NCBI GenBank assembly: GCA_947259495.1
Contig: CAMYLV010000002.1
Span: forward strand, 147,922-211,921
DNA from: an uncultured Desulfobacterales bacterium
GTDB lineage: Bacteria; Desulfobacterota; Desulfobacteria; Desulfobacterales; JAHEIW01
Reading direction: 5' to 3'
DNA length: 64,000 bases
A program made the position numbers and the translations under genes. Positions 12,688 through 63,373 of the stretch are shown piece after piece. The notes beneath the pieces were generated by a model. That model did not search any database, was not told the DNA's origin, and saw nothing but the letters and a program-made list of their open reading frames with translations. Each line of letters begins with the position of its first letter. Position 1 is the first letter of the stretch.

Positions 12688-12768
12688 ATTTATTTCGCAA
12701 AGCCCTTAGGTACGTTATCATTTCTAAATGATTGCCCTGGGTATTTCAGCTTTATATGGCAGTCAACT

Positions 12769-12910
12769 GGTTCAAAGGTTCAGTGTTCGAAGGTTCAGAG
12801 GTTAGATAATATAAGGTCTCAACGGTTCAGCGTTGCAGGTTATCCCAACCCAAGACTTCTGAACTCAGGACCCAGAACGGGGAACCTTGAACCTCTGAAC
12901 CTTGGAACCC
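12769..12910. repeat. Palindrome of short tandem GGTTCA units (copy 1)
   Basis: The left part carries imperfect tandem GGTTCAAA/GGTTCAGA units; the right part carries the complement (GAACCTTGAACCTCTGAACC). The two arms can pair into a long imperfect hairpin with about 60 bases between them. A second copy with the same layout and the same left-hand flank (AGTCA-(A/G)C...CTGGTTCA) lies at 24184-24332. It occupies the leader between tRNA-Ser and dnaX. Confidence 0.8.
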
Positions 12911-12927
12911 GATACAGGCATTTCATT

Positions 12928-14604: not shown

Positions 14605-14613
14605 ATACGAATT

Positions 14614-14717
14614 TATACCGTTTTCCATAACAATGTTCCGGAATACGGAAGTACGGCATAAAGGGTTGTAGAAAAAAACGTTTGAATATCGGAACGTTTT
14701 TTTGACAACCCCTATAT
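14614..14717 (+). repeat. Structured 104-bp repeat, copy A
   Basis: It starts TATACCG and ends CTATAT. It has a small hairpin (TTCCG/CGGAA) and a long one whose arms GGTTGTAGAAAAAAACGTT and AACGTTTTTTTGACAACC pair. Related copies are at 34747-34849 (same strand) and 63211-63314 (opposite strand); copy C is about 85-90% identical by eye. It starts 10 bases after the dnaX stop and ends nine bases before the ybaB ribosome site. Confidence 0.9.
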
Positions 14718-24098: not shown

Positions 24099-24183
24099 AG
24101 CAGCTCCTTAATTATCGTATTTTGGCCGTGCAATTGTGGATACCGATTGCTTCTAACATTCAGATTTCAGTAGTCAGCCACCT

Positions 24184-24332
24184 GGTTCAGAGGTTCACGG
24201 TTCAAAGGTTCAAAGGTTAGATAAACAGCAGACAGATTGCATGGGTCAGAGGATACAGCAAAACAGCCAAGGCATTTGATCCTGAAGTATTGAACCCTGA
24301 ACCCCGGAACCTCTGAACCCTGAACCTTGAAA
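24184..24332. repeat. Palindrome of short tandem GGTTCA units (copy 2)
   Basis: The left arm has four imperfect GGTTCA(A/G)A units ending in AGGTTAGATAA, as in copy 1 at 12769-12910; the right arm has the complement (GAACCTCTGAACCCTGAACC). Loop sequences differ between the copies, the arms and flank are shared. Confidence 0.8.
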
Positions 24333-24402
24333 CTGACACCATATTGAGGGAACTCACCAAACGCAACCCTAAATTTGAGCCCGAACGCAGCGTTCAAACC
24401 TG

Positions 24403-34710: not shown

Positions 34711-34746
34711 TTTAGGTATACCTAATTTTTTTATACATATTCAAAT

Positions 34747-34849
34747 TATACTGCATTTCATAATAATGTTCCGGATTACGGAATTGGGGTATAAGTGGTT
34801 GTAGGAAAAATTTTGGCATAACAGAACGTTTTTTTGACAACCACTATAT
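34747..34849 (+). repeat. Structured 104-bp repeat, copy B
   Basis: The same layout as copy A (14614-14717): starts TATACTG, small TTCCG hairpin, long stem AGTGGTTGT...ACAACCACT and end CTATAT. The stem pair before GGTTGT is T-A here and G-C in copy A, a compensatory change. The inner arms are more diverged than in A and C. It lies between the CYTH gene and the rplM promoter. Confidence 0.88.
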
Positions 34850-57918: not shown

Positions 57919-58755
57919 ATGGTCGATATTCAGGAAAGCATGCCGCCCGATCCGAAAGGGGCAGAAGCGCAGAAAGATGCGGCCGTCAAAACGTCGCTGC
58001 AGAAAATCAAACATAAAATCATTGTCATGAGCGGTAAGGGCGGTGTCGGTAAAACCAGTACCGCGGTTAATTTATCTTTGGCCCTTGCCGAAGCAGGGCA
58101 CAGGGTCGGAATCATGGACGTCGACTTACACGGCCCGGACGTCCCGCATATGCTGGGAATAGAAGGAACGCCGGAGCTCATGTCGAATCAAAAGCTCAGC
58201 CCGATGAAGTACTCGCAGAATCTGAGCGCCATGTCGATTGAGTCGTTTATCCCCGGCAAAGACGACGCGATTATCTGGCGCGGACCGATGAAATATTCGG
58301 CAATCCGGCAATTTATCGGCGATGTCGATTGGGGCGCGCTGGATTTTCTGGTGATTGACAGTCCGCCGGGCACCGGCGATGAGCCGCTGACGGTGGCTCA
58401 AATTGTTACGGATGCCAGGGCCATAATCGTGACCACCCCTCAAGAGGTCGCTTTGGCCGACGTCCGCAAATCCATTAATTTCTGCAAAACAGTCAAAATG
58501 GAAATCTTCGGGCTGATAGAGAACATGAGTGGCCTGAATTGTCCCCATTGTGGTGAAATGATCGATCTCTTCGGATCCGGCGGCGGTGAAAGAACCGCCA
58601 AGCAAACCGGCATTCGCTTTCTCGGCAAAATCCCCTTCGATCCCAAAGTTGTTGCCTGTGGGGATTCAGGGGCCTGCTATCAGAAAGTGCATGCCGATAC
58701 AGCGGTTTCCCGGGCATATGCCGATGTAGCCCAGAAGCTGTCCCAGCTAGCTTGA
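57919..58755 (+). CDS. Mrp/NBP35-family iron-sulfur cluster carrier ATPase
   Basis: A 278-residue P-loop protein: deviant Walker A GKGGVGKTSTAVNLSLALAE (in part), DVDLHGPDVPHMLG, DFLVIDSPPGTGDEPL and the CxxC pair in LNCPHCGEMIDLFG that binds a [4Fe-4S] cluster between subunits. It hands clusters to target proteins. The stop codon TGA (58753-58755) overlaps the first two bases of a repeat element. GGAGA lies upstream of the ATG. Confidence 0.96.
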   Translation: MVDIQESMPPDPKGAEAQKDAAVKTSLQKIKHKIIVMSGKGGVGKTSTAVNLSLALAEAGHRVGIMDVDLHGPDVPHMLGIEGTPELMSNQKLSPMKYSQNLSAMSIESFIPGKDDAIIWRGPMKYSAIRQFIGDVDWGALDFLVIDSPPGTGDEPLTVAQIVTDARAIIVTTPQEVALADVRKSINFCKTVKMEIFGLIENMSGLNCPHCGEMIDLFGSGGGERTAKQTGIRFLGKIPFDPKVVACGDSGACYQKVHADTAVSRAYADVAQKLSQLA

Positions 58756-58938
58756 AGTCATCTCAAGAATGCATCTAACCCGCCTGCGGCGGACAGGCGC
58801 CCAGGGGCTTTGTTATTCCGGATAAACGGGATTACACATCTATTTCTATAAACACTAAGGAGTGCATAAAACAGATTCAAAATACTCGAATACTAACGTG
58901 TATGCTCCGTTTTTGAATCGGTTTTCGCCTCGCCCTTG
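58754..58938 (+). mobile_element. MITE-like element, copy 1 (diverged)
   Basis: It begins GAAGTCATCTCAAGAATGCATC and runs to about CGCCTCGCCCTTG. It matches the reverse complement of the element at 60390-60605 over most of its length (for example CCCGCCTGCGGCGG, GGGATTACACATCTATTTC, ACTAAGGAGTGCATAAAACAG). The second terminal repeat has decayed or was lost. Confidence 0.75.
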
Positions 58939-59021: not shown

Positions 59022-59858
59022 ATGAAGGTTAAGATTACCACTCTTGTTGAAAATTCAGTCGGCATCGGCGGCAGCCGTGGGCTCATCGGCGAGCACGGCC
59101 TGGCTATTTTGATTGAAACCGGAAAGCATCGCATTTTATTCGACACCGGGCAGTACCTGGCGCTGGAAAACAATGCCCGCGTCCTTGGCAGCGATCTGGC
59201 AAGTATCAATACGGTGGTACTCAGCCATGGTCATTATGATCATACCGGCGGCTTGAGCCATCTGCTGGCATGCAATTCAGATTTTTCATTTTATGCTCAC
59301 CCCGATGTCTTTGCCCGCAAACTGATCAAGCGCAAAGGTCGGTATAAGGGAATAGGCATCCCTGTTAGCAAAATGGATCTGGTCAAAAAAGGTGTCAAAT
59401 TAATCCTGGATACGGTCCCTGTGGAAATTGCCCCGCAAATTTTGACCTCCGGTGAAATACCCCTGGAATCCGATTTCGAATCTGTGGCGGAAGGATTTTT
59501 TGTCGAAAAAGACGGCCGCAGGGTCCCCGACATGCTGGCCGATGATCAGGCCTTAATTTTAAAAACCGGCAAGGGGCCGGTGGTCGTTGTTGGATGCAGC
59601 CACCGGGGTATTATTAACACCCTCAACCGGGTCCAAAAAATAATTGGCCGAAAAAGCATTTATGCGGTTATGGGAGGGCTGCATCTGGTCAAAACAACCG
59701 GTGCAAAGCTGGAAACTAGCATGCGTTATTTGCAGCGCTTTAACTTAGAAAAGATTGTTGTGGGGCATTGTACCGGCAGTCATGCCATTCAGGCACTTTA
59801 TGCCCGTTTTAAAGACAAAGTCGTTCTTAACACCGTCGGGAATACAATCACCTTTTAG
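59022..59858 (+). CDS. Metallo-beta-lactamase-fold hydrolase (beta-RFAP synthase-like)
   Basis: A 278-residue protein with metal ligands in SHGHYDHTGGL, the later His in VVGCSHRGIIN and GHCTGSH. The overall pattern (LVENSVGIGG at the start, HGLAILIETGKHRILFDTGQ) resembles the archaeal/bacterial family annotated as dihydropterin (beta-RFAP) synthase, but that annotation has little experimental support outside archaea. No ribosome site is evident. It lies between two inverted copies of a repeat element together with two small genes. Confidence 0.9.
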   Translation: MKVKITTLVENSVGIGGSRGLIGEHGLAILIETGKHRILFDTGQYLALENNARVLGSDLASINTVVLSHGHYDHTGGLSHLLACNSDFSFYAHPDVFARKLIKRKGRYKGIGIPVSKMDLVKKGVKLILDTVPVEIAPQILTSGEIPLESDFESVAEGFFVEKDGRRVPDMLADDQALILKTGKGPVVVVGCSHRGIINTLNRVQKIIGRKSIYAVMGGLHLVKTTGAKLETSMRYLQRFNLEKIVVGHCTGSHAIQALYARFKDKVVLNTVGNTITF

Positions 59859-60389: not shown

Positions 60390-60605
60390 GAAGCTGTCTC
60401 AAAAATATTAGATCACGTCCAAGGGCAAGGCGAAAACCGATTAAAAAGTGGAGCATACAACGTTAGTATTCGAGCATTTTGAATCTGTTTTATGCACTCC
60501 TTAGTGTTTATAGAAATAGATGTGTAATCCCGTTTATCCGGAATAACGCAGCCCTTGGACGCCTGGCCGCCGCAGGCGGGTTAGATGCATTTTTGAGATA
60601 GCTTC
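60390..60605 (-). mobile_element. MITE-like element, copy 2 (complete, 216 bp)
   Basis: The ends GAAGCTGTCTCAAAAAT and ATTTTTGAGATAGCTTC are inverted repeats with one mismatch. Inside, CGTCCAAGGGC and GCCCTTGGACG form a second perfect 11-bp inverted pair near the ends. The rest matches copy 1 (58754-58938) in the opposite direction. The element ends on the first base of the neighbour's stop codon (60605-60607). No coding capacity. Confidence 0.78.
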
Positions 60606-63210: not shown

Positions 63211-63314
63211 ATATAGCGGTTGTCAAAAAAACGTTCCGATATTCAAACGTTTTTTTCTACAACCACTTATGCCGCAATTCCGTGAATCGGAACACTATTA
63301 TGAAAAGCGGTATA
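63211..63314 (-). repeat. Structured 104-bp repeat, copy C
   Basis: The reverse complement matches copy A (14614-14717) closely, including an identical inner hairpin of 40-odd bases, with differences mainly at the outer parts. It lies 60 bases before the start of the FHA gene, in the opposite direction to that gene. Confidence 0.9.
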
Positions 63315-63373
63315 ATTTCGCAATGCACAATAAGCTTTTTAAAATACCTATTGAACATAGAGGATTATTAAGA

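Follow-up and report, generated by a model that had tools for sequence, protein, structure and literature searches.

Three copies of a structured repeat

The window, by which we mean the whole 64,000-nucleotide stretch of DNA that was analysed, holds three copies of a 101-bp element running from TACCG to CTATA. They lie within 1-2 nt of where the sequence-only reading had placed them, and a profile search of the 64-kb window returned no fourth. Chance can be ruled out as their origin, since they belong to a family that numbers hundreds of copies. The genes named as lying downstream in plus-strand coordinates are confirmed by Pfam as YbaB/EbfC, ribosomal protein L13 and FHA; copy C, however, faces away from the FHA gene. 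The features are listed below, with the TTA target left out of the element coordinates of copies A-C.

14616-14716, plus strand: copy A of the element, TACCG...CTATA (profile search and flank statistics)
14613-14615, plus strand: TTA target, flanking copy A and not part of it (flank statistics and nested insertions)
14614-14660, plus strand: left-end module of copy A (fold and pair counts)
14614-14621 / 14653-14660, plus strand: left-end outer stem of copy A, containing A.C and G.T irregularities
14636-14640 / 14646-14650, plus strand: left-end inner hairpin of copy A (fold and pair counts)
14662-14712, plus strand: right-end hairpin of copy A (fold, pair counts and nested insertions)
14662-14669 / 14705-14712, plus strand: right-end outer arms of copy A
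14668-14671, plus strand: GTAG of the copy A right end
14672-14682 / 14693-14703, plus strand: right-end inner arms of copy A
14683-14692, plus strand: right-end 10-nt loop of copy A, in other copies the site of nested insertions
34749-34848, plus strand: copy B of the element (TTA flank 34746-34748)
34795-34802 / 34837-34844, plus strand: right-end outer arms of copy B (fold)
63212-63312, minus strand: copy C of the element (TTA flank 63313-63315)
63259-63266 / 63216-63223, minus strand: right-end outer arms of copy C (fold)

The window contains other repeats besides. Long imperfect inverted repeats at 58754-58938 / 60420-60605 (146 nt at 94% complementarity plus 40 nt at 90%) bear no match to the element and enclose an open reading frame of 278 amino acids (59022-59858), whose putative product resembles, on visual inspection, a protein of the metallo-beta-lactamase fold. 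Arrays of GGTTCAGAGGTTC-like units, in both orientations, are common to positions 12760-12920 and 24175-24340.

Copy number and distribution

The genome from which the window derives (hereafter, the home genome, G000) comprises 4.44 Mb in 69 contigs, in which a first look returned 325-341 candidate copies. Within the 1.58 Mb (36%) that was read there are 79 full copies and 70 fragments, the long forms described below being scored as two pieces. The sequence-only reading had suggested a search of the whole genome and of relatives, and this has turned three copies into a family of hundreds. Relatives carrying the element include three genomes of the same genus and three from other families, while two genomes of the same family as the home genome, G004 and G005, are devoid of it. 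Across a sample of the class, the element is present in 19 of 389 genomes, all from one order and distributed patchily over roughly 12 families. Named matches are to Desulfobacterales, Desulfobacteraceae and Deltaproteobacteria MAGs, including CSMAG_995, CSMAG_771, CSMAG_2445, CSMAG_2399 and Meg19. Plasmids, phages and viral contigs (IMG/VR) gave no match.

The element has expanded in genome-specific bursts. Mean identity is 97% among the 18 copies of CSMAG_995 (which is G312, as judged from identical flanks) and 95% among the 15 copies of CSMAG_771, and G021 and G030 each have a master sequence of their own. This similarity within genomes, together with the difference between them, indicates recent spread inside each host.

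Fold and covariation

A subterminal hairpin is present at both ends, according to the folds and pair counts. A stem, TTATACCGC/GCGGYATAA, closes the left end; the right-end hairpin reads GTGGTTGT-AG-AAAAAAACGTT...AACGTTTTTTT-G-ACAACCAC-TATA. Folding of the element strand as RNA gave z-scores against shuffles of -4.5, -4.8 and -4.6 for copies A-C, and the consensus master folded as DNA gave z = -8.9. As DNA the two strands are equally stable, so the fold is no pointer to RNA.

The pair preceding GGTTGT is indeed G-C in copy A, T-A in copy B and T-G in copy C, as had been described, with the T-G of copy C representing a change on one side only and copy A carrying an A.C mismatch one pair outside its G-C. 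The compensatory change claimed on this basis is real but confined to a single stem pair, 50:98 of the model, which is the second pair of the right-end outer stem. Over 181 distinct copies (93 from the home genome and 88 from others), this pair is T-A in 105, G-C in 26 and C-G in 16, and none of 2000 shuffles paired equally well. Recurrent double changes occur only here, the remaining pairs being nearly invariant or decaying on one side. Copies of the G-C type form a home-genome subfamily and those of the C-G type are from G030, which implies at least two compensatory changes. The single covarying pair shows that pairing matters, but it reflects few independent events and is not decisive; the structure as a whole is backed mostly by sequence conservation.

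Ends, target and mobility

The element is mobile, and its ends are exact: the 101-bp unit TACCG...CTATA is delimited by its flanks, by an empty site and by nested insertions. Insertion takes place in a fixed polarity immediately 3' of TTA, with target bases neither added nor removed. With the target written as TTW, the two positions ahead of W carry T in 92% and 99% of 84 left flanks, a set dominated by the home genome, and W itself is A in 83%; three bases of the target are fixed, and the fourth is mostly T. All copies in CSMAG_995 (18/18) have the TTA flank, with little constraint on the first base to the right (A 8, T 6, C 3, G 1). The right flank in the home genome shows a preference for A (73%), which counts against the IS200/IS605-like reading developed below.

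An empty site is provided by the copy at C2:18748, which lies inside a dispersed repeat of ~250 bp; five copies of this repeat without the element join exactly at the insertion point. An automatic comparison of empty sites was dominated by matches among copies of the element, and this is the one case drawn from it. The host repeat, which starts ACCTGAATCTTGCATGAAAATTAATG, was seen in several copies, one of them hosting the element:

C2:18748 region; C13 (L092:2377-2622); C5 (L074:7693-7938); C3 (L237:16481-16741): ~250-bp dispersed repeat

Because TA is present in both element and target, the C2:18748 site alone cannot separate insertion without duplication from duplication of TA. This bears on whether the element might be a classical MITE of a DDE transposon of the IS630/Tc1 type, for which TA at both termini and a typical target of TTTAAA would speak, given that TA duplication would yield an identical final sequence. 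The distinction is made by copies inserted into the 10-nt right-end loop of older copies, in three independent registers: AACGTTTG|AATA, AACGTTT|GAATA and AACGTTG|GAATA. None of the junctions TG|AA, T|GA and G|GA contains TA, yet the inner element is complete at both ends, with both of its TAs, and the halves of the host loop sum to 10 nt with no base gained or lost. The inner copies of the TG|AA composites are of one subfamily, and these composites may not all be independent events. TA duplication is rejected by these insertions; moreover, the right end is still CTATA where the base to the left of the element is not A, and the termini are not inverted repeats (TACCGC versus TATAGTGG). We therefore regard a DDE-type MITE as very unlikely. 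The suggestion of a MITE, made from the sequence, holds in the broad sense of a MITE-like mobile element, to which the bursts, the many copies, the nested insertions and the empty site all point; lacking terminal inverted repeats and target duplication, the element is not a classical MITE.

Abutted head-to-tail pairs, in which a right end meets a left end, were found in two genomes as CTATA|TACCG and CTACA|TACCG; an RE-LE junction reads CTATATACCG. With regard to incomplete copies, ~12 of 24 solo right-end fragments have their start in the hairpin loop, at model positions 65-75, with examples on home contigs at C10:46900, C10:247441, C2:98001, C5:124215 and C6:70176, and left-end fragments that follow RE-LE junctions terminate within the left loop. 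Such fragment ends would be accounted for if hairpins were broken at their tips, for instance by SbcCD.

Gene context

The element lies predominantly between genes: on a simple ORF call, 72 of the 79 full home copies are intergenic, compared with 25% of random positions. This placement is what remains once insertions in genes are purged. The full copies have no preferred orientation relative to genes, and the orientations of the neighbouring genes (++ 23, -- 19, -+ 16, +- 13) are like those at random intergenic sites, which argues against a role tied to one direction of transcription. The stable fold, the hairpin with a T run and the one covarying pair might have pointed to a functional RNA or a terminator, maintained by selection acting on host expression, and a transcribed motif had been among the initial suggestions. 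The unbiased orientation and the restriction of covariation to one pair leave that suggestion unsupported. The patchy occurrence in bursts, the insertion into other repeats and into the element itself and the lack of an Rfam family stand against it as well, and an RNA motif or terminator of this kind is very unlikely.

Long forms and a related repeat

About 18 home copies are of a long form of ~227 bp, in which a GC-rich multi-hairpin module (CACCGACCACCCGC...CACCC) lies within the TTCCG/CGGAA hairpin. The module also stands alone elsewhere, as GTCAACGACC...ACCCAATC, so that either two repeat families have been joined in the long form or the short form arose from it by deletion. A separate dispersed family was observed, consisting of a stand-alone, GC-rich repeat with multiple hairpins (GTCAACGACCACCCGC...ACCCAATC) that is homologous to the interior of the long form:

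L121:1501-1633; L122:1501-1631; C2:41514-41642; C13:21593-21697: stand-alone GC-rich repeat

Search for a mobilising enzyme

Y1 transposases were sought in 18 genomes, among which G021 is 95% complete and the drafts G312 and G216 are 70% and 88% complete, respectively. At the loci examined, drawn from the Y1 matches of these genomes, no Y1 transposase is accompanied by the ends of the element. A tree of 33 Y1 proteins contains no clade that is common to the hosts examined yet absent from G004 and G005. The IS200 TnpA genes of G007, G021 and G030 were considered as parents and rejected, not being flanked by element ends. Neither the 1.58 Mb of the home genome nor the candidates in G021 include a gene-bearing LE...RE element, only truncated ends being seen. 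The paired copies of G375 and G216 were considered as possible composite transposons and discarded, there being no transposase among the ORFs listed.

A repeat of the REP type, moved by a RAYT (TnpA-REP), merits comparison. REPs are palindromes of 20-50 nt preceded by GTAG (PMC8266576), and the element shares with REPs and BIMEs a GTAG directly before its right-end palindrome, an intergenic location and a high copy number; to this extent the REP-type suggestion of the sequence-only reading holds. RAYT-like Y1 proteins occur in most hosts examined, three of them in the home genome. RAYT genes are often flanked by REPs. The home RAYT loci have no flanking copies; a RAYT with matching ends, for which a search had been suggested, was not found there, and RAYTs are also encoded by the element-free G004 and G005. 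No RAYT-like protein was found in G021, which has near-identical copies; its single Y1 protein is an IS200 TnpA with ends unlike those of the element. Furthermore, the element is a fixed 101-bp unit with defined ends, a distinct left end and a TTA target, rather than a single hairpin or an inverted pair. Mobilisation by a RAYT is accordingly judged quite unlikely.

The mobiliser might instead not be a Y1 enzyme, but a tyrosine recombinase or an uncharacterised transposase acting on the two-hairpin fold. Recently expanded hosts in which a candidate Y1 is missing favour this, namely G021, with its other-ended IS200, and G312 and G216, in which no Y1 was matched. These last two are incomplete drafts, so that a missing gene is no proof of absence. 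Copies show no bias with respect to GC skew (45 of 79, p = 0.26), and the lack of a replication-strand preference also favours a non-Y1 enzyme. Elements of the IS608 type have a lagging-strand bias, and its absence here is a weak point for a lagging-strand mechanism. Reverse transcriptase (PF00078) was not detected in five of eight hosts (G001, G007, G021, G216 and G312) and serine recombinase (PF00239) is present in one of the eight; neither is common to the hosts, contrary to what retrotransposition of an RNA or an IS607-type element, respectively, would require, and we count this too in favour of a tyrosine recombinase or uncharacterised transposase. No positive candidate has emerged, and the target, the absent duplication and the hairpins agree with HUH logic. 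Overall, a non-Y1 mobiliser of this kind seems rather unlikely. It is likewise unlikely that the enzyme moving this widespread family of the Desulfobacterales lies outside the recognised Y1, DDE-MITE, serine and reverse-transcriptase systems altogether, in which case a host or other recombinase might read the folded single strand, with an internal TAA as its guide to TTA targets.

Relation to known systems and a proposed mechanism

Members of IS200/IS605 have no terminal inverted repeats or target duplications and insert on the 3' side of a particular tetra- or pentanucleotide; they need a hairpin at each end, and derivatives that consist of the ends only (PATEs, palindrome-associated transposable elements) are often moved in trans (PMC7290912). 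The element resembles PATEs in lacking terminal inverted repeats and target duplication, in going in 3' of a fixed short sequence outside itself, in having a hairpin at both ends and in being noncoding, with presumed action in trans. It differs in that no parental IS with its ends was found, in its hundreds of copies, in a target of three bases (TTA) and in the Y1 content of its hosts, of which two incomplete ones have no detectable Y1 and a third has only the other-ended IS200 TnpA. Its outer stems are closed at both ends, which is not a known feature of IS200/IS605.

Among other small repeats, Correia/NEMIS, RUP, ERIC/RU-1, RU-2 and RU-3 are likewise structured, ~100-170 bp long and dispersed between genes. 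Correia and RUP duplicate TA and have terminal inverted repeats; they are set apart by this description, the sequence comparison being with Rfam only. The multi-branched 227-bp long form recalls HEARO and similar transposon-associated RNAs, from which the element differs in having no ORF, in its restriction to one order and in matching no such family in Rfam even at E 5. Nothing relevant was returned by Rfam at the gathering threshold either, and no published description was found, in keeping with the initial impression that no named family matches.

We favour, at a probability of about 0.5, a short non-autonomous mobile DNA element with two structured ends, spread in trans by an IS200/IS605-like (HUH/Y1) system. 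Single-strand machinery of this type is suggested by the fixed polarity, the absence of duplication and of inverted termini, the target outside the element, the fixed right terminus and the end hairpins. By this likeness of anatomy the element would be a candidate member of IS200/IS605, although no Y1 carries its ends. An enzyme encoded elsewhere would act on the element in trans, binding both hairpins and making one cut at the end of the TTA flank and another behind the terminal TATA. Joining of the ends would then generate RE-LE junctions like those of the head-to-tail pairs. In IS200/IS605 elements a guide located at the base of the hairpin pairs with the site of cleavage. Here, the TAA of the internal GGTATAA can pair with TTA and may extend the left-end stem into the target, making it a candidate guide; no copy with both guide and target altered was found. 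The transposase may have been lost from several hosts.

The element defines a new family of small non-autonomous repeats, and would be more than that only if its mobiliser proves new. It is a high-copy, recently active repeat of important sediment bacteria; both its ends and its target are defined exactly, and it could serve as a strain-typing marker and as a warning of assembly trouble. With fresh copies in several hosts and no obvious transposase, it offers a clean case for finding the mobiliser.
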